Position numbers and translations under genes: made by a program. A stretch of DNA of 48,875 bases from Bacillota bacterium (GTDB lineage Bacteria; Bacillota; Sulfobacillia; Sulfobacillales; Sulfobacillaceae): NCBI GenBank assembly GCA_023511625.1, contig JAIMBD010000018.1:1-48875 (forward strand). Reading direction: 5' to 3'. This document shows, one piece after another, positions 4,561-38,600 of this stretch. Below the pieces are notes generated by a model, which worked only from the letters and a program-made list of their open reading frames with translations, was not told where the DNA came from and ran no database searches. Each line of letters starts with the position of its first letter. Positions within the stretch are counted from its first letter, which is position 1.

Positions 4561-5502
4561 ATGCCACCGGTAGACCGACCGGGCGGCGGCCGGGATCCTC
4601 GCGTACTGCGCCCGCCGAGGTTCTGGCGGCCGCCCCGTGCGGCTGGCCGCGGCGCGGCGCCGGCCGTGCCGAGGGAAGAGGCGGCCGGTCGTCTTGAGCG
4701 CACGGCCCGCGGCGAGTGGCCCTGGACAGCGGCTTGGGGCGCCGGAGACTTGGCGGCGCTTTACGCCTTCGGGTGGGAACCGGTGGGACAAGTCAGCGGG
4801 GCCTGCGCCATCCATGCGGCCGTGGAGGGAGACGGCGACGTGGAGTCGGTGGCGAGGGCCTGGGCTCGGGCGTACTACACGGCTCGGGATACCGCCATGA
4901 AGCGGGCTCAGGCGCAGGCCGAAACCCTGGGAGGCACCTTGGTGTTGGGAGCGCGCCCCGAGTGGCGGCGCGATGGGGCCGTCGTGGAGTGTCGCCTTCA
5001 CGGGACCGCCTTTCGGGGGCCGGAAACCGGAACGGTGGTGGTCAGTCCCCTCAGCGCGCAAGAGGCCGCGCGCCTTCGGGCCGTGGGAATCCGGCCGGTC
5101 GGGACGGCGTTCGGGTACGCGCGGCAGACCTGGCCGGTGGGGTACCGGGCCGAGTCGTCCGCAGCGCCTCCCGGTGGGGCCCTCGCCGAATGGGAAGGGC
5201 TGACGCGACGGCTGGCCCAAGTGCGGCGCGCAGCGCTCGAGCGCCTGCGCGAGGACGCCCAGCGGATTGTGGGGGCCAGAGGGGTCGTGGGGGCAGTGAC
5301 CCGGCAAACGGTTGAAGACACCGAGCTGCGCTTTGTCGGCTATCCGGGGCAAGGGCTGGTTTTAGACGGAGTCTACTACGCTTACGAGGCCAATGGCGTC
5401 GTGAACGTGCCCGCGTTCACCTTTGAGGTCTTTATGGTGGGCGCTGCCGTGACCGGTTGGGCGTCTGGAATGAACGCCATCGGGACAGGGATCCGACTGT
5501 AA
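4561..5502 (+). CDS. Tandem YbjQ-like protein 2 (diverged paralogue)
   Basis: The 313-residue protein begins on the base after the stop of the preceding gene; GGAGG in the end of that gene serves as ribosome site. After a basic, Pro/Arg-rich N-terminal extension of about 55 residues, it repeats the two-domain plan. The first copy has LYAFGWEPVGQVSGACAIH, the helix TARDTAMKRAQAQAETLGG, then VECRLHGTAF. The second has LRAVGIRPVGTAFGYA, the helix RRAALERLREDAQRIVGARG, then a longer C-terminal end with VGAAVTG. It is clearly a diverged relative of gene 1, so the operon encodes four such domains. Function is unknown; joint assembly with protein 1 is an inference from the gene order and shared fold. 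Confidence 0.7.
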   Translation: MPPVDRPGGGRDPRVLRPPRFWRPPRAAGRGAAPAVPREEAAGRLERTARGEWPWTAAWGAGDLAALYAFGWEPVGQVSGACAIHAAVEGDGDVESVARAWARAYYTARDTAMKRAQAQAETLGGTLVLGARPEWRRDGAVVECRLHGTAFRGPETGTVVVSPLSAQEAARLRAVGIRPVGTAFGYARQTWPVGYRAESSAAPPGGALAEWEGLTRRLAQVRRAALERLREDAQRIVGARGVVGAVTRQTVEDTELRFVGYPGQGLVLDGVYYAYEANGVVNVPAFTFEVFMVGAAVTGWASGMNAIGTGIRL

Positions 5503-5521
5503 GCGTAAGGGTTCGGGGAGT

Positions 5522-5550
5522 GGCCCAGGCGGTCTTGTACTGCCTGGGCC
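5522..5550 (+). terminator. Hairpin after the YbjQ-like operon (terminator-like, no U tract)
   Basis: A 12-bp stem with one mismatch (arms GGCCCAGGCGGT and ACTGCCTGGGCC, loop CTTGT) starts 20 bases after the stop codon. It is not followed by a T run, so it may be an imperfect terminator or an mRNA 3' stabiliser. Confidence 0.5.
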
Positions 5551-6175
5551 CGGCCGATGGCACGGGGCCGTCGACGATGTCCAGGCCGGGGCCACCGGTT
5601 TCCCTTGCTCGATAGCCGCGATGGACGACCCGGTTTATCCGCAGGTGTGCGGCGGCGCCGCCGGGAGAGGGGATGGGGATTCTGCTCGCGCGGAAGGTTT
5701 GTACCACCGTTGCCGGGATCATCGCAATCTCTTCCCGCCATCCGCCCGTTGCCGGACGGAGGCGCCGGGCTTAGGGGCGGGGGCCCCGCCAGGTTCCCGC
5801 TTCCTCCGGAATTGCCCGGCTGGCGGCGGGGCTTCCATCCCGTCCACAGGCGTTTTGCGTCTTCGGTCCACTGCCGGCGACGGCGGCTGATTGCCGCCGC
5901 GTTGGCCGAGGGGTTCCCCGGTACACCGCCAATCCCGACGACGTTCGGGATGTCGCGACGCGGGTTGAGATCGTGCCGGTCCCGCCCCGACCGCCCAATC
6001 GATGCGCGCCATCGTTCGGCAGCTGTGGCCTCCGCTTCTGCGGGGGCCGCACGGTTTGCCGCGGTTCCCAACTGGATTTGCATGGGAAAGACACCGCAGG
6101 CGCCGCCATCCCCCATCCGGAAACCCGCCAGGGAGGCGAAGGCGGCCAGCCGATGGCGTCGGACCCGCGGGGGTC
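5551..6175. other. Gene-poor stretch between the YbjQ operon and the exonuclease pseudogene
   Basis: About 620 bases of GC-rich sequence. Long open frames exist on both strands, but they have low-complexity Arg/Pro/Gly translations typical of chance frames in GC-rich DNA. I see no recognisable gene, promoter or RNA. Confidence 0.35.
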
Positions 6176-7058
6176 TCACCCGCTCGCTCCGCCTTCGCCG
6201 GGCGGCGCCGGAACCTCTGGCTCGTCCCACGGCGCGGTGCCGAAGGCCGCCGCCCACGCCGCGTCGGCGCTCTCGCGGCAGCGGGTGGCCTGTACGGCAG
6301 GCCACCAGCCGCGGTGGAAGGCGTAGTGCGCGAAGATGTGGGTCGTCATCCAGATGTCATGCACACTGTAGCGGCGGATGGCCTCCACGGCGCCCGCCTG
6401 CCACCACGCCCACACGTCGCTGCCGGTGCCGAGCGGCTTGACCGGCAGGGCGAGCGCGACGGCCAGTTCGGCCAGGGCCTGCCGCGGGGCGGCCCCGTAG
6501 GAACCGAGCGGGTCCATGAGGTCGATGCGCGACCTCGTCGTACCGCCCCCGGTAGGCGTCGACGGCGTAGAAGCCTGGCGCCGGAATTTCCCAGCGCACG
6601 GCGCGGTTGGTCAGCACCGGCAGGTCGAACCTGCCCGAGTTCCAGCCGACGAGGCGGGGCCGCTGGTCGCCGACGAACTGGAAGAACTGGCGCAAAAGCT
6701 CTGCCTCCCGGCTGTCGGGGGTGCCCAAGGCCCCGATCCGCTGCACGGCGCCGTCGGGGGCAATCCAGGCCAAGCCGATCGCGACGACCTGCTGGAGGGC
6801 CGGCTTCCGCGGCGGGCGGCTCGGATGGGCGCGATCGGCGAGCTGCACCCCGGGCCAGGCGACGAGGGCCTCCACCCACCGCGCCCGAGCGGGCCGCTCG
6901 GCGTCCGGCCAGTATTGCCCGCTCCAGGTCAGGAGCGCGCCTAGGACCACCGGGTCGCACTGGACGGTGTCGAGGCCGCGTCTGACCGGTCCAGCCACGC
7001 CCGCTCCGGCCCGTCCGGGTCGGCCTGGGCCCGCGTCACGGTGGCGGCATCGCACCAC
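6176..7058 (-). pseudogene. PolB-type 3'-5' exonuclease (COG3298/PF10108-like), frameshifted
   Basis: The upstream piece reads VVAIGLAWIAPDGAVQ, then EAELLRQFFQFVGDQRPRLVGWNSGRFDLPVL. This is the hallmark exonuclease II block of the predicted exonucleases related to the exonuclease domain of DNA polymerase B. The continuation RIDLMDPLGSYGA, then LGTGSDVWAWWQAGAVEAIRRYSVHDI lies in a different frame, so the frame is lost near 6517-6530 within a GCGCATCGAC context. The expected N-terminal D-x-E catalytic motif is not found; at the matching place the protein reads GLDTVQCDP. The 5' end is also doubtful, because an integrase remnant on the other strand abuts it. It is broken or, less likely, affected by a sequencing error. 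Confidence 0.7.
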
Positions 7059-11818: not shown

Positions 11819-14800
11819 TTAAGACGACGTTCCGGGCAGTCTCTTGAGACCTTCTACAACGGAGGACTCGACCGCCGCCGTGCCTCCGACCACCCACAGT
11901 GCCTCGATAGCAGGGAGGTGGTCCAGGTAGGCGGTCGTGGAAGCGGGCAGCTGAGTTGGGCCGGTCAACACCACCGGGAGGTTGGCGAGCGCCGCCAATG
12001 GCCCAGCGGTCAACGCGTCCACGAAGCTGCTGCCCTCACTACCATCGGCCGCCAACACTGCGCCGGTGGCCTGCGGGAAGTAACGCCTCGCGATGGCGAT
12101 CGCCGTGGCCTCCCGATCGGCTCCGCCGAGACGGGTGACCACCACCCCCGGCCACGCCGCCACCTCCTGGGCAATGCTGGGTGCCACTGCCGCCGGCCCG
12201 CCGAGAATCACCACCTGACGTATGCCTACCTGCTGTACGAAGGCCAACGCCGTCGAGGGTAGCTGGGTTTGCCCAGGGGCCACCAACCACAGGGGCGCCG
12301 ACGCCTGGGCCAGCACAGGACTGGCGGCCAACGCATCGACCATGCTCACGCCGTTAGCCACGTAGAGGGTGCTCGCATGGCTAAGGTGTTGTTGGTAGAG
12401 GTAGGCATCGATCAACGCTGCGGTTTGCGTTCGATCCTGGCCTTCGAAGCTACGAACGACGGTTAGCCCTGCTTGCTTCAGCGTCCCCACCACAGGATCG
12501 GAAACCGCCGCCGGTCCGCCGACCACGTACACCGTCCGGGCGCCCAGCGCTTGAATGGCCGCAAGCACGGAGGAGGGCAACATCTCAGCCGGGGTGAGGA
12601 GAATGGGGGCTTTCAGGGCCCCGGCCAACCCGGCCGCTGCCAAGGCATCGGGACTAGGCGTCCCCGCGCCGGCATTGGCCAAAATCACGGCCGGCGCGCC
12701 ATTGGGGTACGCGGCTTCGGCGGCAGCAATGGCGGTCCCTATACGGTCCGTGCCGGCCACCCGGGTCACGGTGGGCAGGGCCCCAGCCGGAACTACGGCG
12801 AACAGCCCAGGTTCTCTGACGCTCCACTCCAGTGTGGTGCCGGTGACCTGCACCCCCGCCACTGGCTGCCAGACCGCTCGTAGGGGGTTCCAAACGGCGA
12901 CGGCGTCGGATAGGGGTCTCATCCCCGGAATCGTCACGGTAAGCGCCACGGGCGCGGCGAACACCGAAAGCGTGGCCTCGGACCCATTGGGAGTGGCCGT
13001 CAAGGCCAACAAGGCGACGGGCGTCGTGGATAAAGTGACCCCGTTGGGAAGGTTCGGCGTCGCGTTAAGCCCCGCGGTGACAGGCCCCGTTACGGCATTG
13101 GTCGGTAGCGCGGCCGTAACCGTTACCCCTGTAGCGCTGGTGGCGGTCAGCGTGGCCCCCGCCCCGGGATTGACGGTTTCGGTCTCCGCCGACGGAGGGC
13201 CGGAGATCCCGCCCATCCCGCTGCCGCCTGCCGCTCCGGGGTTGGCACTCCCGCTCCCGCCGCTGGTCTGAACCGCCGCAAATGGCGTGCCCGTCAAAGC
13301 CGCAATGGGGGGAGTCGAGGTAGCAGAGAAGGTTACGGTGATGCATCCCGTGCTCGCGTCATACTGCTGCGGGGTCACTGCGGCCCAGCTAGATCCGGTC
13401 CAGTACTGGAGGGAACTCCCATTGGGAAGGCCGCAGAACGCCGCTTGGACTGCGGTAAAACTATTGCCTGCACTGGTGCTAAGGTCGTAGTAGCCGGATG
13501 CGGTTCCGCTCGGTGATGTTCCAACCGGATTGCCTGTGTACTGGCTCACGGTCACGGAACCGGTTCCTCCGGACGCGGTGGCCGTAATGGTGGGAGTTTG
13601 GTGGCTCCCGTACACGGTAGCAGTGGTCGACGAGCTGGCACTGGTGGTGCTCCCGGCCGAGGTGATGGCAGAGAGTTGGATGCCGGACCCGGTGACCAGC
13701 AGACCCAGCGTCACGCTCGCGGTGGCCCCCGTCTTATCCACGACCATTGCCGTGAACGTCGCCGGCCCGACCGTAGAGGGGGTCCCAGAGAGGACGCCGG
13801 TTGTGGCATTGAGGCTCAGCCCGGCGGGCAGGGAGCTACCGGGAGCTAGCTGCCATGTGTAGGGGGCTTCCCCCCCGGTGGCCGTCAGCGTCGCCGCGTA
13901 GGCTTGGCCCACCGCCGCACTCGGCAGCGAGGTGGTGGTCAGTTGCAGCGGGGATCCCCCCGTATAGGTGAAGGCGTTGGCAAGGGCGGGACCGATGCCG
14001 GCCGCATTGCCGACGGCGATCCCGACCGGCCCCGTCCCCGGCGGCGTGATAGCCTGCAGGGTCCCGTTGGGTCCGGGTTGGGCCGCAACCGCCTGTTGCC
14101 CGAAGTAGACCGTGGTGGCACCCGTAAAGCCGGTCCCGGAGACCGTGACCGTGGTACCCCCCGCGTAACTCCCGCCGGTGGGATTGATCCCGGTGACTAC
14201 CGGTACCGGGTCGGCAGTTATCGAGGTCTCTTCTTGCAGCGGCGGCGACCCGGCCACCTCCGCGCTGATGGTGGTAGCTCCGGGGGTGTCGGTCGACCAC
14301 GTCACGAGTGCCACCCCGGTGGCGTTGGTCGGCGCGGACGTCGCGCTTAAGCTACCATTGGTAGCGGTGAACGTGACCGTTGCACCTGCTACCGGCTGCC
14401 CATTGCTCGTCAGCACCGTGGCGGCTAATGTCGTCGCGTCTTGCTGGTTGGGCATCGCCATCACCGCCTCGGGATAGGCGGTCAGTCCGAGACTGGCTGG
14501 CGTGCAGGCCGCCGAGCCGACCGTACAACTACTGGCGCCGGCGTAGGTAAATTGGTCTGCTGGCGTCGTGACGCTCGCGGTATTGTTTTGATTAACCACC
14601 ACGTCCACGGTGCCCGTGTTGCCCGCCGGGGCCACCGCCTGGACGGTGGTGCTGTTGACCAGTTGCTCGCCCAACGCCGAAACACAGACCGCTGGGCTCC
14701 CCGGCGTGCAGAAGTCGACCGTGGGGGGGAGAAGGAGGGTGGCGATAGCATTGCCGCTGGTGACGGCCGAGGTTGGCTGAAGCGCAAAATTCTGCCCTGT

Positions 14801-17800
14801 GATGGTCACTGGGGTGCCACCTGCGGTCGGTCCGGTGTCGGGGGTCACTCCATTGATCACAGGGGTGGCTTGTAACTCTGCGGGCCCACAGCTTTGACTG
14901 CCCACCCCCGTATAGGTGAACGCCGTGCCGGTGGTGGCACTACTCCAAAGTCCACTCGGCCCAACGACTGCCACCGTAACCGCCTGACCACTCGGTACGG
15001 CCGGAGTACAGGCCAAAATGGTGTTGTTATTGAGGATCTCAAAGGCGGGAGCCGGGGCCACGTAGGGACTGGCAGCCTGGCCAGGATTACTTTGCTCTGC
15101 GTTCCATAGCTGCGGGTCCACACTGGGCTTGCTGCCGCCAAACCATACCGCCTGCGTCCCCTGCAAATTCTCCCCGGTGATGGTTATCACCGTGCCGCCT
15201 CCTATCGGGCCGGCGTTGGGAGTGACGCCGGTGATAATTGGTGCCGTGCTGCTGGACGGCGGCGTAACGGTGAAGGTGACGGGCGGGCACGAACTCGTAC
15301 CGCACGTGGGCGTGCTGGTTGTTCCCCATGAGGTGACCGTCACCGTGTACGTGCCGGGATTTAAGGTCGGCGGCACGGTGACTTGGATTTCGGTATTGGT
15401 ACTCCCCGCCACCGGGGTGGGGGCGCCCGTGGGCACGCAAGGTCCCCCGTCGGTTGGACAGAATGAGACGGCAAGCGGCCCATCGGCGAAGCCTTGCCCC
15501 TGGATTACCGCAGTCTGCCCGGCGTTCCCGGTGCTCGGCTGAATCCCGCTGATCTGAAGCGAGGGCACCTGAAACATCAGGGTGTCCCAACGGGGATCGA
15601 GCAGAACGTTGACCGCCATCGGACTGGTGGTATCTCCCAGGGTGGCCTGCGCGTCCTGCTGCCAGGTGGTGGTGGAAGTGCTGGAGGTTTGCACCGAGAC
15701 AGCTTGGGTCATCGAGTGTTCGGTGCCCATGGTGAAGGTTGCCCCCACTTGGGCCTTCGCCGAAACCAGACCACCAGCATACGAGCCGTCTAGTCCCGAG
15801 GAGATGGCTGCCGTATCCACAAAGGCGGTGTCTACGCTGGCGTCGTATTCGGTCGAACTCGACAAGCTACTGGTGTTGATTTGGGAGTTGGAGAGGTCCA
15901 CGGTGTAGGTTCCCTGTACTCCCCCGGTAGTAATCGCCTGAGTGACCGTCGGAGCGTTGAGATTGGGAAAGACGGTATTGGGATTGGCGGCCTGGTTGTT
16001 GGTGGCGGCAAAGGGATCGAGATTCAAGAGGTTTTGACACTCGGCCGGCGTCAACTCCACCGTGGGCGTGTAGGCGCCGACCTGTAGGGGCGTCCCTTGC
16101 GCACAAGAGGCCAGCTTTCCGGCCGAGACGGTCAAAAGCGTCTGGTTGGCCCCGATCATGGCATAGGGCAGCATGGCCCCACTCTGATTGGCCGCCTGTG
16201 GGGCCCCTTGGGGACAGTTGGGGGCCCCGCCGCCGGTGACCGGTGCCGCTCCATTGGCACACACCGCCTCATCCCAGATGGCAAACTGCGGATGAACCAG
16301 GAGAATGAACTGGTCGGAACGCCAAGGGGCCTGCGTGGGACTGCTGCTGCCCGACCCTGTGGTCCAGGTCTGACTGCTACTAGAGGTGTAGCTAACTCCT
16401 TGATCCGAGGTGGACGAGTTGGTGGAGGAATTGGTGGCTGACTGATCCCACTCGGCATTATTTTTGACTTCAGCTCCCCATCCGTCGTAGGAAAAGGCCA
16501 AGTCCACCGAGAGACTGGTATCGAACGTCGACGTCGTGCTGTTGGTCGTCGACTGGGTGAAGCTATAGTCGGTGCTGGTGGACTGCCCCTGCTGGACGGA
16601 ATACTGAGCGCTGCTGTTGTCTCCAGGAGGCTGGTAGAGAATTTTGAACGGCAGTACGTCGAGCTGTTCAATGGCGGAGGGAACCTGGACGACTTCGATG
16701 GGAGCCGCGTACGCGTAGAGCGTATCCTCACACTGTCCCGTGGCAGGGTCTGTAAACGTGGGACACGCGGCATTGTTGACGTTGATGTATTGATACGTCA
16801 CCGCCTCCACGATGGTCAGGGTGGTGGCCACGTTCGGCAAGGTGAAGCTCAGGGAATCGACCCCGACCGCGGTCTGGTAACCCTGGGCGTTCTGGGGGGG
16901 TGGCGTGTAATTGAACTGGGAAGGGAGCTGGACGAGTTGGGGAGTTACGGTTCCGTTGCTAGAGACGTCTTCGATCGCCGCGGCATACACGTTCAGTTGG
17001 CAGCCCGTCAGGTCGGGGTAGCTGCCGCTCAACTCCGTAGCCAGCGTCGGACAGCCGGTGGCGTCGTAAATGGGCATGGTGACCGTAGGACTTTGGGCCA
17101 CGAAGACCCCCGGATTGTTCGAGCCGTTGGGGAAGGCATCGGCCAGTGGCGTCCCGCCCGACCCCGGCGGATTCGTCGGGTTCCATAGGGCGCTCGCGCA
17201 GGTGTAATTGCTGAAGTTGGCGCCGTTTTGCAGGTCCTGATTGAACGGGTCGCTGCAAGCGAAGTTGGTCAGCCCCTGCATGGCCACCGATAGCGTACCC
17301 CCATTGCCGTCTTTAAGCGGCTCGGCCGGCAACGGATGTACGCCCGACGGGGCGAGGTTGACCGTGGGAGCGGAAGGCGTTCCCGACGCGCCTACGGTGC
17401 CAAAGGCTCCCACCCCGGCGGGCGGCCATGCCTGGGGCGTGCCCGCCGGCACCCCGGTGGTGGCCGCGGCCACTGCCACCGTGGCCGTGGACGGGTTGGT
17501 CACGCCACGGATTTGAACGGCTACCGTCTGAAGCGGGGCGGCCGTTGCGGTATTGGGTAGCGTCAACGTCACCCCGCAGTTGGCCGAACAGCCTCCAGGC
17601 CCGGTATTTAACACTGCAGCTGCCGAAGCGGGTTCGGATTGTCCTCCCTCGACGCTGATCGCATATTCGCCGGGATCGGCAGGGAATTGCGCCCCTTCCG
17701 CATACAGCGTGAGGGTGTCTCCTCCGCTCAAGGCCGCCTCTGCAGGAAACGACATCGTCCAGGTCACACCCGGGGCATCGGCTTGATAGGAGGTCACGGA

Positions 17801-19231
17801 GGTGGCGACCGGCGGTTCGGCGCTGACCCAGGTGTACCCCTCGGTACTGCTCAGAGTGACCCCGGCTGCGCTGACCTGCCATTGACTGCCTGGCACGGCT
17901 CCAGCGGCGGGGTTGATGACGCCGCTGACTGTCATGGCCACCGTATCCCCGGCGGTCACCGCCACTGGCAACGAAAGTTCGACGGAGCTGCCGGATGCCG
18001 CCACGTTGCTGGGCGTGATCGCGCCACCGTTGTTGACGGAAACGGTATACGCACTCGCTTGGCTCGGGAACGTCCACGGCGCCGAGAACGTCCACGAGCT
18101 CCCTGCAGGAACTGCCACCGGACTGGTCACGGATGCCGTCCATGTCGCGGGTGCCCCTGCCACCAGGCTAGAGTCGGGCGTCCAGTTGAGGCCACCGAAC
18201 ACCTGGCCTTGCGCGGCATAGGCCGTAGCCCCCAATCCGGTGGTGGTACTACTGTTCCACGCCAGGGAAAAGTCGGTGGCCGGATAACTGCCCGCTGGGG
18301 GATTGGTCACCCCATACACCGCCATCGTCACCGGCGTGGTGGCCGAGGATGAGCCGAGATTTCCCCCGAGAACCAGCGTAATCTGGTTGGACGGGCCCGA
18401 GTTGGACAAAAAGAGATTCGTGATGGGGACAGAACCTGAGGGGGTACTGAGGTGATACAGTGACTGGTTCTGGGTGAAGATAGTCCCGGGGGGACCTGTC
18501 AAGGTTAGCGTGTCATTTTGGCTCAGCACCTGGTTGGATACGGCAAAGCTCACCGTCCAGGCGTTCGTTGCCGCAGCCTGTAAAGAGGTGGGCGCGACGG
18601 CAAGAGGGCTGATGAATGGCGTGGCAAACGTCAGGCCAACGCCGGGGCTGGTAGGTGTCGTCTCGTTAAGGCCCAGGGTAAAATCGCTGGCTGGGTAGGT
18701 GTTGGCGGGCGGGTTGACCACGTTGGAAATAAAGAGGTCAAAGCCCTGATTCGGAATGATGGCTTGCCCGGAAGGGGCCCCGGGTCCCGGTGCAGTGACC
18801 AAGTTGACGGCGTCGGTCGTCCCCCCGGAACTGGCCGCATACACTGCAGACACCACCGGCGCCACAAATGAAGAGGGTGAGCCTTCTCCGGGGAGGATCT
18901 GGTAATCCCCCGGATCCAGGGGAAACTGGGTGCCTGGCGGACCGGTTAGTTGGATGGTTACCGGGGCGTACACCGCTTGGTAGACAAAGGCCTCGGTCTC
19001 CCACTGCGACGTAGCTCCTGCGATGGGCTGAGCATTGTTATTAGTGGGAGTAGGTGTGACAAAGTAGACGGTTGCAATGAGGGGAGAGCCTGTACTGCTC
19101 TGGGCCGCGACGGCCGTTGAGCCCGGTATCAGAAAGGTCCAAACCCACAAGATGATCAGCAGGATTCGCCTCAGCCGGGCGAGCTGTGGGCGGTGCCGTA
19201 AATTCCGGCGCCATTTTGTCCACCATTGCAA
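11819..19231 (-). CDS. Giant exported surface protein with Ig-like domains and C-terminal CWB2 repeats
   Basis: The TTG at 19231 is the best start. It follows AAGGAGGAGGT at spacing seven and gives a clean signal peptide: a basic KWRRNLRHRPQLARLRR, a hydrophobic ILLIILWVWTFLIPG, then a cleavage-like AVAA. Upstream ATG codons would add an implausible tail. The 2470-residue product has many Ser/Thr/Pro/Gly-rich beta-sandwich repeats. At least four are IPT/TIG-like (about 1225, 1330, 1457 and 1675, e.g. PVITGVTPNAGPIGGG), one is Big_1/invasin-like (about 1590-1670) and one He_PIG-like (about 1765-1850). Three CWB2 repeats (about 2155-2470; VAGTDRIGTAIA, FEGQDRTQTAA, LGGADREATAIA) should bind anionic wall polymers. 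A Ser/Thr/Asn-rich zone around 880-1000 matches no domain I know. It is probably a wall-bound adhesin or S-layer-associated protein. Confidence 0.88.
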   Translation of the reverse strand: MQWWTKWRRNLRHRPQLARLRRILLIILWVWTFLIPGSTAVAAQSSTGSPLIATVYFVTPTPTNNNAQPIAGATSQWETEAFVYQAVYAPVTIQLTGPPGTQFPLDPGDYQILPGEGSPSSFVAPVVSAVYAASSGGTTDAVNLVTAPGPGAPSGQAIIPNQGFDLFISNVVNPPANTYPASDFTLGLNETTPTSPGVGLTFATPFISPLAVAPTSLQAAATNAWTVSFAVSNQVLSQNDTLTLTGPPGTIFTQNQSLYHLSTPSGSVPITNLFLSNSGPSNQITLVLGGNLGSSSATTPVTMAVYGVTNPPAGSYPATDFSLAWNSSTTTGLGATAYAAQGQVFGGLNWTPDSSLVAGAPATWTASVTSPVAVPAGSSWTFSAPWTFPSQASAYTVSVNNGGAITPSNVAASGSSVELSLPVAVTAGDTVAMTVSGVINPAAGAVPGSQWQVSAAGVTLSSTEGYTWVSAEPPVATSVTSYQADAPGVTWTMSFPAEAALSGGDTLTLYAEGAQFPADPGEYAISVEGGQSEPASAAAVLNTGPGGCSANCGVTLTLPNTATAAPLQTVAVQIRGVTNPSTATVAVAAATTGVPAGTPQAWPPAGVGAFGTVGASGTPSAPTVNLAPSGVHPLPAEPLKDGNGGTLSVAMQGLTNFACSDPFNQDLQNGANFSNYTCASALWNPTNPPGSGGTPLADAFPNGSNNPGVFVAQSPTVTMPIYDATGCPTLATELSGSYPDLTGCQLNVYAAAIEDVSSNGTVTPQLVQLPSQFNYTPPPQNAQGYQTAVGVDSLSFTLPNVATTLTIVEAVTYQYINVNNAACPTFTDPATGQCEDTLYAYAAPIEVVQVPSAIEQLDVLPFKILYQPPGDNSSAQYSVQQGQSTSTDYSFTQSTTNSTTSTFDTSLSVDLAFSYDGWGAEVKNNAEWDQSATNSSTNSSTSDQGVSYTSSSSQTWTTGSGSSSPTQAPWRSDQFILLVHPQFAIWDEAVCANGAAPVTGGGAPNCPQGAPQAANQSGAMLPYAMIGANQTLLTVSAGKLASCAQGTPLQVGAYTPTVELTPAECQNLLNLDPFAATNNQAANPNTVFPNLNAPTVTQAITTGGVQGTYTVDLSNSQINTSSLSSSTEYDASVDTAFVDTAAISSGLDGSYAGGLVSAKAQVGATFTMGTEHSMTQAVSVQTSSTSTTTWQQDAQATLGDTTSPMAVNVLLDPRWDTLMFQVPSLQISGIQPSTGNAGQTAVIQGQGFADGPLAVSFCPTDGGPCVPTGAPTPVAGSTNTEIQVTVPPTLNPGTYTVTVTSWGTTSTPTCGTSSCPPVTFTVTPPSSSTAPIITGVTPNAGPIGGGTVITITGENLQGTQAVWFGGSKPSVDPQLWNAEQSNPGQAASPYVAPAPAFEILNNNTILACTPAVPSGQAVTVAVVGPSGLWSSATTGTAFTYTGVGSQSCGPAELQATPVINGVTPDTGPTAGGTPVTITGQNFALQPTSAVTSGNAIATLLLPPTVDFCTPGSPAVCVSALGEQLVNSTTVQAVAPAGNTGTVDVVVNQNNTASVTTPADQFTYAGASSCTVGSAACTPASLGLTAYPEAVMAMPNQQDATTLAATVLTSNGQPVAGATVTFTATNGSLSATSAPTNATGVALVTWSTDTPGATTISAEVAGSPPLQEETSITADPVPVVTGINPTGGSYAGGTTVTVSGTGFTGATTVYFGQQAVAAQPGPNGTLQAITPPGTGPVGIAVGNAAGIGPALANAFTYTGGSPLQLTTTSLPSAAVGQAYAATLTATGGEAPYTWQLAPGSSLPAGLSLNATTGVLSGTPSTVGPATFTAMVVDKTGATASVTLGLLVTGSGIQLSAITSAGSTTSASSSTTATVYGSHQTPTITATASGGTGSVTVSQYTGNPVGTSPSGTASGYYDLSTSAGNSFTAVQAAFCGLPNGSSLQYWTGSSWAAVTPQQYDASTGCITVTFSATSTPPIAALTGTPFAAVQTSGGSGSANPGAAGGSGMGGISGPPSAETETVNPGAGATLTATSATGVTVTAALPTNAVTGPVTAGLNATPNLPNGVTLSTTPVALLALTATPNGSEATLSVFAAPVALTVTIPGMRPLSDAVAVWNPLRAVWQPVAGVQVTGTTLEWSVREPGLFAVVPAGALPTVTRVAGTDRIGTAIAAAEAAYPNGAPAVILANAGAGTPSPDALAAAGLAGALKAPILLTPAEMLPSSVLAAIQALGARTVYVVGGPAAVSDPVVGTLKQAGLTVVRSFEGQDRTQTAALIDAYLYQQHLSHASTLYVANGVSMVDALAASPVLAQASAPLWLVAPGQTQLPSTALAFVQQVGIRQVVILGGPAAVAPSIAQEVAAWPGVVVTRLGGADREATAIAIARRYFPQATGAVLAADGSEGSSFVDALTAGPLAALANLPVVLTGPTQLPASTTAYLDHLPAIEALWVVGGTAAVESSVVEGLKRLPGTSS

Positions 19232-19332
19232 GATGTAACCTCCTCCTTTGCCGTGTGCCCGGTAACATGTCGTCCGGTAATATAAAGCTGTCCAATGACT
19301 GGGACATTTGGATGAAGTAAAGACAAAGTTCA

Positions 19333-19389
19333 CTACTGTATACGCTACCAGAACTGCCATACGGTTCCCTTACGGCGTCCATACAGTAG
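19333..19389. promoter_or_regulatory. Long-range inverted repeat upstream of the giant surface-protein gene
   Basis: CTACTGTAT at 19333-19341 is repeated as its exact reverse complement ATACAGTAG at 19381-19389. A GGTTCC/GGAACC pair is interleaved. The block lies 100-160 bases upstream of the TTG start in the likely promoter region, so it may be a two-site operator. No clear -35/-10 pair could be fixed. Confidence 0.4.
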
Positions 19390-21109: not shown

Positions 21110-21296
21110 TTTCGCCCTGGATTTTTTAAAGGGATCCAGTTTTGAAGGACGGACCACCGGGGAAGGGGGCGTTGGAGAGAAACTCTTTCGAGATATTGGC
21201 GGACGGTTTTGCGGTCGCGGCCACAGTAGAGACCGCAATCGCGGAAATACTCCATTCTTGGGCGTATAAACTACAGACTTCGGCCACGTACTCCAT
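21110..21296 (-). pseudogene. IS21-family IstA transposase, N-terminal remnant with frameshifts
   Basis: From the ATG at 21296 the minus strand reads MEYVAEVCSLYAQEW-SISAIA. It then shifts frame to GRDRKTVRQYLERV, and shifts again to PSKLDPFK. Together these give the N-terminal helix-turn-helix of IstA (EYVAEVYRLYxxxGxSxxEIA, then LGRDRKTVRKYL, then RPSKLDP). Homology stops at about 21130 and no DDE core or IstB follows, so the element is truncated. Its terminal repeats lie just upstream (21383-21439). Confidence 0.7.
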
Positions 21297-21382
21297 GCTT
21301 CAAGCCATCCTTTTTGCCTCCTTGAGAAGAATTTCTGTACGGAGGCCATCGTCGAAGGAGGCTGCGTGATTCGTCAAGATCG

Positions 21383-21439
21383 CGGTGAAACTGGGCAATT
21401 TCGGACGGTGAAACTGGGGGAATGGCCGCGGTGAAACTG
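21383..21439 (-). repeat. IS21-type terminal direct repeats, three copies at 23-bp period
   Basis: CGGTGAAACTG occurs at 21383-21393, 21406-21416 and 21429-21439, exactly 23 bases apart. Multiple direct repeats at the ends are known in IS21-family elements as transposase-binding sites. They lie directly upstream of the istA remnant, so this is the left (istA-proximal) end of the broken element. Confidence 0.65.
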
Positions 21440-21446
21440 TCCGACA

Positions 21447-21749
21447 TCAGATGTGATAAACCACAGCAGGCAGCGAGGACCACTGGGTGGGCCGGTGCCC
21501 TGCGGCGATTCCAGACCGCATGTGGGCTTCTAGCGCCCTGAGGATGGCGGTCAGCGTTGCGATGACGACAGGCACCCAGCCGTTGACGCGGAACCCGAGG
21601 CGCTGCTCCATAGCCTGGCAGCGGCCGTGCATCTCGGGTTCCAGCGCCTCGAAGCGACCGCGCAGGTGGGCCTTCAGCGCGTCAAACCGGTGGTCGAGGC
21701 GCTCGAACGGCTGGGGGACCCGTACAAAACGCTGATCAATCCGGGCCAA
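21447..21749 (-). CDS. Possible small coiled-coil membrane-anchored protein (doubtful)
   Basis: The 100-residue frame has an N-terminal heptad-like coiled coil (FERLDHRFDALKAHLRGRFEALEPEMHGRCQAMEQRL) and then a hydrophobic segment VNGWVPVVIATLTAILRAL. This plan resembles small DUF-type proteins with a coiled coil and one membrane helix. The only start is a TTG with no good ribosome site, and coding-like sequence continues upstream in frame (SPDFFHWDD) to a stop without any start codon. It may therefore be a 5'-truncated remnant next to the IS21 end. Confidence 0.35.
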   Translation of the reverse strand: MARIDQRFVRVPQPFERLDHRFDALKAHLRGRFEALEPEMHGRCQAMEQRLGFRVNGWVPVVIATLTAILRALEAHMRSGIAAGHRPTQWSSLPAVVYHI

Positions 21750-21897
21750 GTCATCCCAATGAAAGAAGTCGGGGGAACCGTTTTCTCGGCCCCAAAATTG
21801 TGACTGGCCGAAGACCCTCAGGATAAATTGACCTTATTTGACCTTAATGGTATTTGATGGGCATGGCGGTACCTGATAGGTTAATGATCGGAATCAG

Positions 21898-21924
21898 TTG
21901 GCACTCTCGTAAATGGAGTGCTAA
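21898..21924. promoter_or_regulatory. CIRCE element (HrcA operator)
   Basis: The sequence is TTGGCACTC, nine bases, GAGTGCTAA. This matches the consensus TTAGCACTC-N9-GAGTGCTAA at 17 of 18 arm positions. CIRCE is bound by the heat-shock repressor HrcA, usually upstream of groESL or hrcA-dnaK. Here it lies 72 bases before a small membrane-protein gene, within the probable leader. A weak promoter candidate (TTGACC at 21828, TATTTG at 21851, spacing 17) lies upstream. Confidence 0.9.
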
Positions 21925-21995
21925 TTGCCGGGAACTACCGAAAATGGGCAGGCCGGAGATTTCTCCGGATTGCCAGAGATAAGGAGGTGCTGGCC

Positions 21996-22235
21996 ATGCT
22001 GGTGCCCGTTTGGTATCCGAATCCGGAGGTTTTCCCCTGGATTCAACCGTCTGCCCTGCACAATCCGTGGGTCTTGGCAGGCTTTGTGACTTCGGCGGGA
22101 CTCTTGGTAGCCTTAATGGGGTTTGTGGTGGGGCTGTTCGCAGGCGCTCCTCGACCCGCTACGGGAGAGCCGGTCAGGGCGTCCAGCCGCCGGGAGGCCG
22201 ATGCCGGTGTCGACGCGCCTCGCCGTTCCGCCTAG
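21996..22235 (+). CDS. Small single-helix membrane protein under CIRCE control
   Basis: ATG 21996 follows AAGGAGGTG at good spacing and gives 79 residues. A short N-terminus (MLVPVWYPNPEVFPW) leads to one strongly hydrophobic helix, about residues 28-50 (WVLAGFVTSAGLLVALMGFV, then VGLF), and then a polar, Arg/Glu-rich tail of about 28 residues. No family is recognised. It is the first gene of a two-gene unit: CIRCE lies upstream, a zinc-ribbon gene 34 bases downstream, and a terminator after that. Heat-shock regulation is inferred from the operator. Topology (long C-terminal tail probably inside) and role are unknown. Confidence 0.7.
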   Translation: MLVPVWYPNPEVFPWIQPSALHNPWVLAGFVTSAGLLVALMGFVVGLFAGAPRPATGEPVRASSRREADAGVDAPRRSA

Positions 22236-22269
22236 GCCTTGTCCGCGTGGGGCGAGGGGGGATGGCGCT

Positions 22270-22428
22270 GTGGCGCGTGCAGGATCCCGTCGGGCTCCAT
22301 TTGTGGAAATCGGAGGGTGCCAGGCTTGTGGCCAACCCATCGACTGGGACACCTACCGGGTAACGGCCCAAGCCACGTGGTGTTACGCTTGCTACCGCGA
22401 ATTCCGGCGTCTGCGAGAGGCGGTCTAG
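22270..22428 (+). CDS. Small zinc-ribbon protein, second gene of the CIRCE operon
   Basis: GTG 22270 lies about eight bases after AGGGGGGA and gives 52 residues. The core is IGGCQACGQPIDWDTYRV, then WCYACYREFRRLREAV: two CxxC knuckles 22 residues apart, typical of a one-zinc ribbon. It is too short for the usual ORF cut-offs. It follows the CIRCE-controlled membrane-protein gene by 34 bases and is closed by a terminator two bases after its stop, so both genes are probably on one mRNA. Its function is unknown. Small CxxC proteins in heat-shock units can be redox- or zinc-responsive, but that is inference. Confidence 0.65.
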   Translation: MARAGSRRAPFVEIGGCQACGQPIDWDTYRVTAQATWCYACYREFRRLREAV

Positions 22429-22429
22429 G

Positions 22430-22468
22430 GCCGAGGTTCCTTCGCCGTGGAGGAATCTCGGCTTTTTT
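22430..22468 (+). terminator. Rho-independent terminator of the CIRCE operon
   Basis: GCCGAGGTTCC and GGAATCTCGGC form an 11-bp stem with one mismatch, followed directly by TTTTTT. It begins right after the stop codon of the zinc-ribbon gene. Confidence 0.9.
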
Positions 22469-23287: not shown

Positions 23288-23305
23288 GTTAATTGAGTTT
23301 TGACA
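23275..23305. other. Element/chromosome junction (putative att site)
   Basis: On the minus strand the recombinase codons GTG TCA AAA CTC AAT TAA are read in another frame as V-KTQLTT of the GDT1-type gene. The boundary therefore lies within the few bases around AAAACTCAATTAACC. A matching site with the other half of the gene was not found in the window, so the exact crossover dinucleotide is unknown. Confidence 0.5.
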
Positions 23306-24920
23306 CCGCGTCCGTCTCGACTATGAAATCCTCCACCGGGCGTCGCAGGGCGTCGGGGGGGATCCGCAGGTTGAGTTGGACCGTGCCGTCGGGCGCCACC
23401 GTGATCCCGCGGTGCCCGACCAGCGCGGCCAGGACTTGCCGCTTTTGGGACACGGACAGGGCTGCGCCCTGGAGCAGGTCGTGCAGGTACGCGCGCACCT
23501 TGTCCGGGTCGGCGACCAATTGGGGGGCGGTGCGGGCCACCCGGCGCACCTCGGCTTCGAGCCGCTGGATCTGGGCGCCGAGGTGCTGGCGTTGCTGGTC
23601 GAGGGCCTGCATTTTTTCCTGCAGCAGGTCCGGGGGAATGGTCCCGTCCGCCGCCCGATCCACCAGCCGGCGCATCTTGGTTTCCACCGCCGCGCGGTCT
23701 TTCCGCAGGGACTCCAGCTGGTGCTGCAACGCCTCGAACCGGGGTTGGTGGCCCCGTTTGGCCTCCTCTACCACCCGGGCCACGATGTGCGGGTCGGTGG
23801 CGAGGCCCACGAGAAACTGCCAGACCAGGGCGTCCAGGGCCTCCATCCGGAGGAACGGGAAGGCGCAGGCGGTCCGGGCCGCTTTCCGCGAGAAGTTGTA
23901 GCGGCTGCCGCACGTGAAATGCACGCGGGGCTCGACCTTGCCCTTGTACTGGTACACCGTGCGCCGTGGCACCAGGTTGCTCCCGCACACCGCGCACGTC
24001 AGGAATCCGGCGAGCAGCACGTCCTGCTCGGATTCCGGCCGGCGGGGGCGCGTATGCCGGCGGTTGGCGTCCAGGAGCCCCTGCACCTGCTCCCAGGTGG
24101 GCCGGTCCACCAGCGGCGGGTGGTTGTCCGGCACCCGAATCCAGCGATCCGGCGGGGCCGGTCGGGCAGTGCCGTGGCCGGCCTGGCTGGTTTTCGCGTA
24201 CACGAAATCGCCGGTGTAGACCGGGTTGCGGAGGATTTGCCGCACGGACGTCTTCGTCCAGCGCTCCTTGGGCGGCGGTACCTGGGTGTCGAGGAGCCAG
24301 TCCACGACGGCCTGGATCCCCCGGCCCGCCCGCGCCGCGGCCGCGTACCGGCGGTACAGCTCCGGCACCACGGTCGCGGGGGTCCACGAGCCGGTCACCG
24401 GGCGGTCGTCGGGCGCGTAGACGCCGTTGTCCTGGACGACGTAGCCATAGGGCACGGCCCCGCCGGTGTACTTGCCCTTCCCCGCCCGGACCCGCTTGCC
24501 CTTCATGGCGTTGTCGAGGATGTTCTGGCGGACGAACTTCCCGATGGCGCCGAGGATGGTGAGCATGAGCTCGCCCGCCGGGTCGTTGGCGTCGACCGCC
24601 TCCGTGACCGAACGGAGCTGAATGCCGAGGGCCTTGAGCTCGTTGACCAGGAACAAGAGGTCCAGGGGTTCGCGGCTGAACCGGTCGACGCGGAAGATGA
24701 GGACGACGTCAAAGCGGCGCCGTTTGGCGTCGGCGATCAGCTGCTGCAATCCCTCGCGCCGGGTGTTCGCGCCGGACCGGCCCCCGTCCTCGTAGACGCC
24801 GGCGATTTCCAGGTGCTCGCGCGCGCAGTGCGCGCGCAGAATGTCGTCCTGAAACTCCAGGGAGTAGCCGTCCCGCGCCTGGGCCACCGAGGAGACGCGC
24901 TTGTAGAGTGCGGCCCGCAA
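23289..24920 (-). CDS. Large serine recombinase (site-specific integrase)
   Basis: The 543-residue enzyme catalyses site-specific DNA integration and excision via a phosphoserine link. Residues 3-150 are the resolvase catalytic domain, with the nucleophile Ser at about residue 10 (LYKRVSSVAQ) and Arg motifs in FRVDRFSR. Residues about 170-290 form the recombinase domain (YGYVVQDNGVYAP, then TSVRQILRNPVYTGDFVY). A zinc ribbon follows (CAVCGSNLVP, then HFTCGSRYNF). A coiled coil (about 375-450) and a C-terminal tail complete it, as in phage/ICE integrases. All domains are present, so it may be active. Its last codons overlap the junction with the split GDT1-type gene, the usual position of an attachment site. 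The start (ATG 24920) fits the family N-terminus. Confidence 0.93.
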   Translation of the reverse strand: MRAALYKRVSSVAQARDGYSLEFQDDILRAHCAREHLEIAGVYEDGGRSGANTRREGLQQLIADAKRRRFDVVLIFRVDRFSREPLDLLFLVNELKALGIQLRSVTEAVDANDPAGELMLTILGAIGKFVRQNILDNAMKGKRVRAGKGKYTGGAVPYGYVVQDNGVYAPDDRPVTGSWTPATVVPELYRRYAAAARAGRGIQAVVDWLLDTQVPPPKERWTKTSVRQILRNPVYTGDFVYAKTSQAGHGTARPAPPDRWIRVPDNHPPLVDRPTWEQVQGLLDANRRHTRPRRPESEQDVLLAGFLTCAVCGSNLVPRRTVYQYKGKVEPRVHFTCGSRYNFSRKAARTACAFPFLRMEALDALVWQFLVGLATDPHIVARVVEEAKRGHQPRFEALQHQLESLRKDRAAVETKMRRLVDRAADGTIPPDLLQEKMQALDQQRQHLGAQIQRLEAEVRRVARTAPQLVADPDKVRAYLHDLLQGAALSVSQKRQVLAALVGHRGITVAPDGTVQLNLRIPPDALRRPVEDFIVETDAVSKLN

Positions 24921-26657: not shown

Positions 26658-27020
26658 GTGGGGAAGATGGCACGCGACGAGACGACCATTCAGGCGCGCA
26701 TGCGCAAGGTCCGCAAGATGCGGCGGATGACCCAGCAGGAGGTGGCGGACTTGCTGGGAATCAGCCGGGATTACTACCAGAAGATCGAGTCGGGGGTCCG
26801 GTCGCCCAATCTGCGCCTGATCCAACGCTTTTGCGACCAGCTGGGCGTGCCGCAGAGCGTGCTGCTGGGGGAGGAGAACCCCGAGGCCTCCTTGATGGCG
26901 AAATGGCCAAAGGGCTACTACATCCTGCGGCGGGCGGCCGAGGGGCCGGCCTGGCGCCGGGAGCAGCTCGAGAAGCTCTTCGAGGTGGTGTTCGGGGAGC
27001 CGCCGGATGCCGATGGGTAG
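26658..27020 (+). CDS. XRE-family repressor (ImmR-like)
   Basis: A DNA-binding protein of about 117-120 residues. Residues about 14-70 form a lambda-repressor-like helix-turn-helix (RMTQQEVADLLGISRDYYQ, then KIESGVRSPNLRLIQRFCDQLGV). The C-terminal part, with YYILRRAAEGPAWRREQLEKLFEVVF, is probably the dimerisation or protease-contact region. GTG 26658 has GGAGG at a spacing of nine; ATG 26667 is the alternative. The next gene, an ImmA-type metalloprotease, overlaps its end by 14 bases. In ICEBs1-type elements this pair forms a switch in which ImmA cleaves ImmR after DNA damage or quorum signals. The same role is likely here, controlling the recombinase and cargo. Confidence 0.85.
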   Translation: MGKMARDETTIQARMRKVRKMRRMTQQEVADLLGISRDYYQKIESGVRSPNLRLIQRFCDQLGVPQSVLLGEENPEASLMAKWPKGYYILRRAAEGPAWRREQLEKLFEVVFGEPPDADG

Positions 27021-28077
27021 GCAGGACGCCTGGGAGGCCGAGGAGGACCGGAGCGACGACCCCGCCCGGATCGTCCGGCTGGCGCAGATGGTCTGGCGGC
27101 GCAACGGGTGGGAGGGGCCGCCCTTCGGGCCGCGGCTGGTGGCGGCGATGGAAGGGTGGCCCGTGGCGACGCAGGTCATCACGTTCGACCGGGCCCGCGC
27201 CATTCTGGGCCCGGACTGCCCGCCAAAGCCGGAAAAGTACGACGCCGAGGTGGTCGCCGAGCGTCGCGAAGACGGAACCGTCCGCTACTTGGTGATTTAC
27301 GTGCCCGAGCGTCCGCTGGCGCGGATTTGGTGGTCCCTGGCGCACGAATTCGGGCACATCGTGCTCGGGCACGCGGTGGAGCCCGCGGCGCGGGACACGC
27401 CATGGCGCAACCGCCAGGCGGACATCTTCGCGGCGGAGCTCCTGATGCCGCTCGGCGCCGTCCTGGAGGTGCGGCAGGCGCCCGCATGGTGGGTGGCCCG
27501 GCGGTTCGGCGTCTCGCTGCAGGCGGCCGCCAACCGCCTGGAGGATCTGAAGCGGGGGTGGCTGCGCTTTTACACGCTGGAGGAATTGGAAGCAGGGCGG
27601 AACCTGCTGCGTCGGCCGCCACGACAGGCCGTGCGGGAAGGCGTTCCGGCCCATCGGGGAGCGTGTCCCGCCGCGCCCCTGCCGGAAGAGGAGGTTCGGG
27701 GAGATCGGATGACAAGCGGCAACGGTCGGTCGCCGGGTGCATCGGACGGCAATGGGGTGACGTGGTTCGTGGCCAACGGCGGCTCAGACCGGTTTCCGAA
27801 ACTGGCCGCCTGCCCGGTGTGCGGGTTCGTCAACGACAGTCCGCACGCACCGCTGGAGCGGTTTTGCGGCGGATGCGGCCAGCTGCTCATCAATGCGTGT
27901 GAATGGTCGGAGTGTGCCTACCATCACGTCCCGTTGCCGCCGGGGTACCGGTACTGCGGGGTCTGTGGCCAGCCGACCAGTTGGCATGACCTGGACGACG
28001 CGGTCCGGCGCGCCGCACGGGAGCAGTGGGAGGCGGAGATCGAGCCTGTACCCTTGCCCGACGATTTGCCGTTTTGA
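27007..28077 (+). CDS. ImmA/IrrE metallopeptidase fused to C-terminal zinc ribbons
   Basis: The 356-residue protein overlaps the repressor gene. Its first 220 residues are an ImmA/IrrE (COG2856) zinc protease: HEFGH at 113-117 with the third ligand Glu in DIFAAELLMP (about 144). Such proteases cleave XRE repressors. Unusually, the C-terminus (about 235-356) adds cysteine pairs ACPVCGF, FCGGCGQ, NACEWSECAYH and YCGVCGQP, forming probable double zinc ribbons, and ends in an acidic tail. An internal ATG at 27709 preceded by a GGGGAG might start a separate zinc-ribbon product in the same frame. The zinc part may sense a signal or bind DNA or RNA; this is inference. Confidence 0.85.
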   Translation: MPMGRQDAWEAEEDRSDDPARIVRLAQMVWRRNGWEGPPFGPRLVAAMEGWPVATQVITFDRARAILGPDCPPKPEKYDAEVVAERREDGTVRYLVIYVPERPLARIWWSLAHEFGHIVLGHAVEPAARDTPWRNRQADIFAAELLMPLGAVLEVRQAPAWWVARRFGVSLQAAANRLEDLKRGWLRFYTLEELEAGRNLLRRPPRQAVREGVPAHRGACPAAPLPEEEVRGDRMTSGNGRSPGASDGNGVTWFVANGGSDRFPKLAACPVCGFVNDSPHAPLERFCGGCGQLLINACEWSECAYHHVPLPPGYRYCGVCGQPTSWHDLDDAVRRAAREQWEAEIEPVPLPDDLPF

Positions 28078-35698: not shown

Positions 35699-38600
35699 AT
35701 GGCTAAACAGCGATTCAAAGGGCGGTCCAAGTGGGGAGTGGTTGCCGCCGCCGGCCTGTTGGCGTGGACGCTGGCCCCGATGGGGTCGGTGTTTGCGGCC
35801 AGCGGCCCGCAGGAGACCACGCTCGGCGGGGCCGACCGGATGGCCACGGCGATCCAAATCGCCAACGCCGAGTATCCGAACGGGCCGACCAACGGCTCGG
35901 TAATCATTGCCTCTGGCGCCGACGCGAACCTGATTGACTCGATCACGGCAGCGCCGTTGGCCAAGGCGTTAGGTGCGCCGATCCTCTTGAGCCAGGACGC
36001 CAACACGCTCGGCTCGGAAACCATGAGCTACCTCACGTCGCACGCCATCACCAAGGTGTACCTGATCGGGGCGGCGGCTAATGCCAACATCGAGAGCCAG
36101 CTCCCGGCCGGGGTGACCACGGTGACGCTGACGGGGGCGGACCGCTACGCCACGGCGGCGGCCATTGCCAACCAGCTGGCGCAGGTGGAAGGTACGTCTT
36201 CGTTTAGCACCGTGTACGTCGCGTCTGGCGACGACGCCGACCTGAGCGACGCCTTGGCGATTGCGCCGTGGGCGGCGGCCAAGGGCGACCCGGTGCTGTT
36301 GGCGGCGCCCGGGCAGACGGCGTTGCCGTCCTCCGAGGCCTCCTTCATCACCGGCCAGTCGAGCCAGACGCCGGTGGTCGTGGGGGCGGCGACGGGCTAC
36401 GGCTTGGTCTTTACGGGGGACAACACACCTCAGACGATCGGAAGCAGTACCAACGATAACTATGCCAACGCGGTGGCGATTGCCCAGGCCATGGCCCCGT
36501 CGAGTGGGTACACCACCATTGACATCGCCAACGACAGCAGCACCGAGCTCGACACGGAAGCCAACGGGACGGTGTCCTACCACCTGGTGGACGCTATCAC
36601 CGGCGGACCGCTGGCGGCGATGCAGGGCGCGCCCATCCTCTTTACCGATGGCGCGAACATCCCGTCCAGCCTGCAGTCGTTCCTGTCTAGCAGTGCGGTC
36701 AAGGGCGTGACGATGGTGGATGTGTTTGGCGGCACCGCTTCGATTCCGTCGACCACGGTGACGCAGATCGTCAACACCATCGCGGGGGTTGTGACGCCGC
36801 AGCCCACCAACTCGGGCGGGAATCTGAGCCTCATTCAGATTAGCGGTCAAAGCTTCGGGCAGGGGACGGCAGCGAATCCCGCAGTCGCGGTAGGCGGTAC
36901 GCCGATGACGCTGTCAACCACCTTAACGGACGCCAACGGCAACCCCGTGCCGGGGGTGGACGTCAACCTCTACTTCATTCTGCATACGACACCGCCTACC
37001 TCGGTGACCTCGAATGGACAGCCTTTGGCGGAAGGGTCCGACCAGAACGGCACTTACTTCGCAGTTCCGACCAACGCAGAAGGGGTCGCCGCGGCGCAAT
37101 TGTCGGAGTCGGCGGGGTCTTCGTTGGCGGACGTCGCTCACTATGTAGGGCCGTACACGGCCAACGGCGTCCAGATCAACACGCCGCCAGTCTACCTGGA
37201 GTTCGTCGGTAATAACCAGGCGGCCTTATCTCCGGAGGACACCACGCCGCCCCAGTCTTTCGCGGCGTCCAGCCCCGGCAATCCCACGGCGGGGTTAGTG
37301 CCGGTAGTCTTCACGCTGCCGCCGTTGAACGGGCAGGAGCCAGTGAATGTGCCAGTGACCTTCACGCTCACGCAGACCTACACCAACGCGGCGAACGACA
37401 ACACGGCCTTCTTCGCCAACAGCGACGGCGCGGCCTCGGTCCAGAACACCCAGACCACGAATGCCCAGGGCCAGACGGTCTTCACGGCCCAGGAGGTCGT
37501 GAACACCAACTCCAACGGGCAGGCGGTGGCCTACGTTAACAGTGACACCAGTGGGGCGCAGGTGACGGTTTCGGCATCGGCTACGGACGGCGGCGGATCC
37601 TTCAGCGGGTCGACCACGTTCGGGTTTGGTACGGCCGGGATTCCGAACCACACCATCAACTACGGCGTGTCGGGCGTCACCAACACGCTCGGGCAGTACG
37701 GCCAGGAGGAGCTTTACACCGCCCAGGTGGGGACGGATGTGACCTTCTATGGCCAGGCCTTTGACGCCAACAACAACCCGGTGCCCAACGCGCAGCTGTT
37801 CGTGGTGGCCGGAGGGAACGACAACAACACCGACGCGATGATTGTCAACGGCTCCAGCCAGCCGTTCCCCTACGTGGTCAGCGCGCCGCAAATTCTGCAG
37901 GCGAACGGACAGGCGGTGCCGAACGTCAGCAACGTGACCGTCGGGGGCCTGAGCGGACAGCCGGCGGCATCTTCCAGCTATGGCTTCACGATCAGCGCGA
38001 ACGCGTCCGGCCAGTTCAACTTCACGGTCACCAACTCGACCGCAACGTTGACTGTCAACCCGAACACCAACATCCTCAGCCAGCCCAACGACTACCTCGT
38101 GTACCCGGTGGAGAATGGCACGGTGCAGACCGGATCCGGGCCTGGCAACGGCACAATCTTTACCACCAACGGACTCGTGCCAGCGATTGAGTGGGTGGTG
38201 TCGGGCAACCTGACTAGCATCGGCGTGGCAGGAGTTCCGGACATCAAGTCCACCGACACTTCGGTGAGCGGAATTCAGGCGCAGGCTTCGCCGTCCAACA
38301 TCGTGGGTACGTCGCAGGTGCCCGCGACCGCCACGCTCTACATTGAAGGCTTCTCGGGCGGCGCGGCGTACCCGACCTCCAGCACGGTGCCGAGCGGGCA
38401 GGCCGCGACGGAGACCTTCACGGTCAATGCCGGTGGGAACGCCAGCATTTACAGCGTCGATGGAGTCCCGCTGTCCCAGTACTACCAGGTGACCAAGTCC
38501 GTTCAGATTGGCGTGACCTTCGCCAACGGCACGTACACCGTGTCGGTCAACGGCCAGCAAACCGGGTACGCCCCCGGGGCCGTCTATGGGTCCAACGGGT

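Follow-up and report, generated by a model that had tools for sequence, protein, structure and literature searches.

HrcA regulons are usually seen as chaperonin and DnaK operons. What, then, might a near-perfect CIRCE operator control when the genes behind it encode a single-helix membrane peptide and a 52-residue double-CxxC protein? The two genes lie in a 48.9-kb stretch of DNA, referred to throughout as the window, and all coordinates without a contig or locus label refer to it.

The CIRCE operator and the two-gene unit

The following features make up the unit, all on the plus strand, with the basis for each given in brackets.

21854..21882, plus strand: candidate sigma-A-type promoter TTGATG-17-TAGGTT, a weak match (sequence; layout as at groES and hrcA)
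21898..21924, plus strand: CIRCE, predicted HrcA binding site, TTGGCACTC-N9-GAGTGCTAA (pattern scans; TTGG variant also in the sister genome)
21981..21989, plus strand: ribosome binding site (RBS) AAGGAGGTG of gene 1 (sequence)
21996..22235, plus strand: gene 1, 79-aa single-helix membrane peptide (homologues in a paralogous operon and in the sister genome; modelled helix)
22254..22261, plus strand: RBS GAGGGGGG of gene 2 (sequence)
22270..22428, plus strand: gene 2, 52-aa double-CxxC (C4) zinc-finger-like protein, GTG start (homologues, profile, model)
22427..22468, plus strand: intrinsic terminator, stem 22427-22465 followed by a T-run (folding energy against shuffles)

The operator reads TTGGCACTC-TCGTAAATG-GAGTGCTAA, a single mismatch from the consensus TTAGCACTC-N9-GAGTGCTAA. 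It is the only CIRCE match in the window with up to three mismatches allowed, and 100 shuffles gave none, which bears out the near-perfect HrcA operator of the initial annotation. The site lies 71 nt upstream of the gene 1 ATG, and the candidate promoter, which a strict consensus scan did not list, ends 15 nt upstream of it. The promoters of groES (TTGACT-17-TAAACT-13-CIRCE) and hrcA (TTGACA-18-TATGGT-13-CIRCE) in the same genome are arranged likewise. Operator sequence and position between promoter and RBS are thus those of the HrcA/CIRCE class I regulon, and the hrcA and groES genes of this genome stand behind CIRCE sites of their own. The unit departs from that regulon in its target, two mini-proteins rather than chaperones, and in its restriction to one genus.

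Gene 1 (ATG at 21996, stop at 22235, 79 codons) is modelled with one transmembrane helix at residues 24-50, and its best 19-mer has a mean hydropathy of 2.27. No family was found for it in Pfam, NCBIfam or PHROG; assignment as a phage holin (PF16082) was rejected at 11.9 bits against a cut-off of 30 (E 0.22), with no PHROG match. Other copies of the membrane peptide are about 31-36% identical to it, and a pattern of short N-terminal part, glycine-rich helix and short tail is kept despite this divergence. Convincing relatives are confined to the window's genus, with three to four copies per genome, further copies adjoining a Mur-ligase-like gene and a sugar nucleotidyltransferase.

Gene 2 follows after a gap of 34 nt, with its RBS 8 nt upstream of a GTG at 22270 and its stop at 22428 after 52 codons; its cysteines are spaced C17xxC20-17-C38xxC41. 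The terminator has a folding energy of -27 kcal/mol (z -4.5 against shuffles) and six T after the stem; a simple consensus terminator scan did not list the 22427-22468 hairpin. The RBS, the 79-residue one-helix peptide, the 52-residue double-CxxC protein and the strong terminator described initially were all recovered. The chance that both frames are open is about 4%, and the frames alone are weak evidence; we accept genes 1 and 2 as genes because they are homologous to a paralogous operon.

The surrounding DNA holds several further features. Directly upstream of the CIRCE is IS debris (21118-21472 and 21508-21609), also present at several sites in the sister genome; these stretches, within 21118-21609, contain repeated GTGAAACTG boxes and an apparent IS21-type fragment. 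A large serine recombinase (23289-24920, minus strand; Resolvase, Recombinase and Zn_ribbon_recom) adjoins the unit and may belong to a mobile element, and at 26658-28077 (plus strand) an IrrE/ImmA-type M78 peptidase comes after a helix-turn-helix regulator. Very large surface proteins with repeats that resemble cell-wall-binding repeat 2 are predicted at two places (11819-19360, minus strand; 35699-39430, plus strand). Two tandem genes occupy 3757-5502 (plus strand), the first with YbjQ (PF01906) domains, and a pair resembling them directly adjoins a double-CxxC gene in genome G035 (L019 3451-5475).

CIRCE sites and paralogous operons in the genus

The genus was sampled through two genomes, that of the window (G000; 2.59 Mb, 40 contigs, 97% complete) and a sister genome, G001, the MAG 'Bacillota bacterium HOT.CON.99' (sister contig JAIMAE010000084.1). 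With up to three mismatches allowed, G000 contains exactly three CIRCE sites, upstream of groES (L001), of hrcA (L003) and of the window unit, and a reversed control pattern at the same tolerance matched nowhere in this genome. Nearly all of the 42 genomes of the order have one or two sites, and those inspected in other genomes stand upstream of groES/groEL or hrcA. A credible third site within the order was found in the window's genus only, in both of its genomes. The third site of G001 (L016 5602-5628, TTGGCACTC-TGGGGAAAA-GAGTGCTAA) has the TTGG variant in common with the window operator and lies 215 nt upstream of a membrane peptide gene. Another third site, in G027 (contig 66:5610-5636), was rejected as a further example. 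It most likely comes from a contaminant contig, because its sequence, including the spacer, matches exactly the groES operator of G031, from another genus, and its bin is 63% complete.

When relatives were searched for the same gene pair behind CIRCE, operator and both gene families were found together in the sister genome (L016 5602-6816), with a universal stress protein gene (usp) between the two genes, and were absent in this combination from every other genome of the order (42 searched). The G001 operon, on contig 241, is a trio of membrane peptide (L016 5844-6050), Usp (L016 6149-6598) and double-CxxC gene (L016 6652-6816). A trio in the same gene neighbourhood is present on contig 5 of G000 (L015: peptide 5393-5593, Usp 5772-6224, double-CxxC 6257-6415), where no CIRCE was found even allowing six mismatches. 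Both trios share with the window pair the gene order and homologous genes for the membrane peptide and the double-CxxC protein; they differ from it by the intervening usp, and only the G001 trio is preceded by a CIRCE. Since G000 holds the trio elsewhere, the window pair can be regarded as a diverged paralogous unit without usp, and the contig 5 trio, lacking a CIRCE, indicates that HrcA control is dispensable for the cassette.

The syntenic trios are preceded by a peroxiredoxin and a DUF981 membrane protein and followed by a CtaA/Cox15 haem A synthase and a haem-oxygenase-like gene. Between G000 and G001, the syntenic double-CxxC genes differ at 8, 5 and 25 sites in codon positions 1, 2 and 3, and the usp genes at 22, 8 and 65, which argues for purifying selection on both. 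A search for DNA conservation between the window unit and G001 returned repeat or IS-like stretches only and left the two genes unmatched. The simplest history would start from an ancestral CIRCE-peptide-Usp-CxxC operon, with a second copy in the window lineage keeping the operator and losing usp and the syntenic copy losing the operator; alternatively, the window unit may have been acquired from a relative. Because the sister species retains the arrangement, we regard the unit, on sequence comparison, as very probably a genuine addition to the HrcA regulon that is specific to this lineage.

The double-CxxC protein and its possible counterparts in other HrcA regulons

The gene 2 family comprises proteins of 50-70 aa with an invariant C-x2-C, Q and C-x2-C. 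Its profile matches in 18 of the 42 genomes of the order and thinly across the class; outside the window's genus, no CIRCE accompanied any of the loci inspected. Aligned with the contig 5 copy, the window copy shows 51% identity over the matched stretch (E 1.8e-10). None of the four cysteines or of the other near-invariant residues has been lost from it, and it falls near the genus copies in a family tree with few supported branches.

Against the PF01258 cut-off of 24.9 bits, the G001 copy scores 28.3 and the contig 5 copy 23.0, and the window copy is unlisted, falling under every family cut-off in Pfam and NCBIfam. Both syntenic copies match the PHROG 'DksA-like zinc-finger'. In the structure model (pLDDT 86), a helix at residues 38-50 terminates the protein and no helix lies ahead of the finger; fold searches place TraR, DksA2 and YbiI at the top, as weak matches (E about 1, Z under 3). 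Gene 2 resembles the DksA/TraR C4 finger (PF01258) in its finger sequence and, weakly, in its predicted fold. In DksA/TraR proteins, a coiled coil with an acidic tip enters the RNA polymerase channel, whereas gene 2 has neither N-terminal coiled coil nor acidic tip and carries 16 net-basic residues before the finger. The protein can be seen as related to the C4 finger of DksA/TraR type but lacking the RNA-polymerase arm. The initial description of two unknown small proteins thus holds for gene 1, which has no family, and fails for gene 2, given this relationship; the pair also has a usp-containing paralogous operon. A family of about 60-aa proteins was additionally noted in the order (MRHALAYESVGYCQxCDEPLTSRDVLETGQARLCPxCW; L025-L034, L041 and L050, near 1500), with up to four copies in some genomes and neither of two tested members above a Pfam cut-off.

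Third or fourth CIRCE sites are not rare in the same class outside the order. In ten genomes with extra sites that we inspected, most lie upstream of groES or hrcA. One site of G081 (L120) is located between other genes, and in G070 (L126, minus strand) a CIRCE at 1501-1527 is followed 43 nt on by an Hsp20 gene (PF00011). An exact CIRCE also precedes a Zn_ribbon_8 (Ruc/FmdB-type) protein in two other families of the class (G062, L118:1501-1871; G081, L131:1501-1887). These proteins, of 84-91 aa with a Ser/Lys-rich tail and encoded 72-109 nt downstream of the operator, have the architecture of Ruc. In M. tuberculosis, HrcA is a direct repressor of Ruc (Rv0991c), whose level rises upon heat; the four cysteines of Ruc hold zinc, oxidation turns it into a chaperone, and this activity requires its disordered tail (PMC7448276). 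The expectation that CIRCE normally controls groESL or hrcA-dnaK, stated at the outset of the annotation, is therefore qualified by precedents for other targets, including the small double-CxxC Ruc (PMC7448276; class genomes).

Like Ruc and the G062 and G081 proteins, gene 2 is a small two-CxxC protein joined to an HrcA regulon. Unlike Ruc, it has neither a Zn_ribbon_8 domain nor a hydrophilic disordered C-terminal tail, and in the window unit a membrane peptide precedes the double-CxxC protein. Gene 2 gave no match to PF09723 (Zn_ribbon_8), and direct homology to Ruc was rejected at an hhalign probability of 7% against the Ruc type; Zn_ribbon_8 proteins were found in neither the window's genome nor its sister. 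No paper in the literature searched links CIRCE and HrcA to a zinc ribbon or to Sulfobacillus. With Ruc-type proteins behind CIRCE in G062 and G081 and control of Ruc by HrcA proven, a small four-cysteine protein under HrcA looks like a recurring solution, and the gene 2 protein may fill the Ruc slot.

Proposed control and function of the unit

HrcA is active via GroEL, and unfolded proteins titrate GroEL, freeing the operon (summarised in PMC3842655). This known HrcA-GroEL biology, together with the CIRCE operator, makes control of the window unit by HrcA highly likely. Free GroEL would keep HrcA active, and HrcA, occupying the CIRCE between promoter and RBS, would block transcription. Once unfolded proteins engage GroEL, HrcA would be released and both mini-proteins would be made alongside GroESL and DnaK. 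The gene 2 protein would most likely hold a zinc ion with its two CxxC motifs and act as a thiol switch or assist protein quality control as a small, redox-activated factor; the gene 1 peptide would probably serve the gene 2 protein or the respiratory membrane. As the best overall explanation, with a probability of roughly 0.55, we propose a third HrcA-regulon operon of the genus, in which a heat-induced zinc-thiol protein and a membrane peptide would occupy a Ruc-like slot. The zinc-thiol quality-control role, taken on its own, is a tentative suggestion drawn from analogy. The dedicated heat-shock unit and the membrane stress module proposed initially are likewise conjectural. The stress and respiration genes of the syntenic operon (peroxiredoxin, Usp, CtaA, haem-oxygenase-like) offer supporting context for the overall explanation; the divergence, low GC3 and IS remnants around the window copy, and the sample of only two genomes in the genus, count against it, as do the missing CIRCE of the contig 5 trio and the differences of gene 2 from Ruc in tail and profile.

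Several other readings were weighed. We give negligible probability to a CIRCE that arose as a palindrome by chance or is a groE promoter fragment stranded in an IS-rich region: shuffling expects no such site, its flanks and spacer differ from those at groES and hrcA, and G001 likewise has a CIRCE upstream of its homologous operon. We rejected a chance origin on the shuffles, the genome-wide count and the pattern of recurrence across the 42 genomes of the order. The window copy could instead be a decaying or recently transferred duplicate that no longer contributes, the trio on the other contig being the working cassette. Such a copy might well show the sequence divergence seen here (44-47% and about 31% identity to other copies), the near-flat codon-position differences, the atypical GC3 (0.68 and 0.63 for the window genes, against 0.73-0.93 in other operon copies), the IS remnants upstream and the absence of usp. 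It would be less expected to retain the four cysteines and other near-invariant residues, two open frames, both RBSs, the terminator and a near-perfect CIRCE, whereas the syntenic copy has no CIRCE at all, and we regard this reading as unlikely.

Two further alternatives concern function, and we consider both quite improbable. The double-CxxC protein might be a heat-induced miniature DksA/TraR-type transcription modulator, as the PF01258 score of the sister copy, the PHROG matches of both syntenic copies and the nearest folds would suggest; yet the 16 basic-character residues before the finger leave no coiled coil or acidic tip, the window copy is under every cut-off, and the fold matches are weak. 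The unit might also be a respiratory-chain cassette, its peptide a small terminal-oxidase accessory subunit or assembly factor and its zinc protein helping to provide the oxidase with metal or haem during stress. The syntenic trio indeed lies directly upstream of CtaA/Cox15 and the haem-oxygenase-like gene and downstream of the peroxiredoxin and DUF981 protein in both genomes, but the window copy and the other membrane-peptide copies are in unrelated neighbourhoods and no family match points to such a role.

Under the HrcA-regulon reading that we prefer, what is new here is that the genus placed a membrane peptide and a zinc-finger-like mini-protein under CIRCE; other additions within the class are the unrelated Ruc-type protein in two families and Hsp20 in one genome. 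A bolder version, which we hold to be doubtful, takes a DksA/TraR-type finger as the starting point from which the genus evolved a zinc-thiol chaperone pair of its own, linked to the membrane, controlled by HrcA and functionally convergent on Ruc. If so, small four-cysteine redox proteins would have been recruited into the GroE/HrcA heat-shock regulon repeatedly and independently. Repeated recruitment of four-cysteine proteins under CIRCE would suggest that GroE titration and thiol/redox state are generally tied to each other, and would provide a simple, testable handle on proteins to which no function has been assigned.
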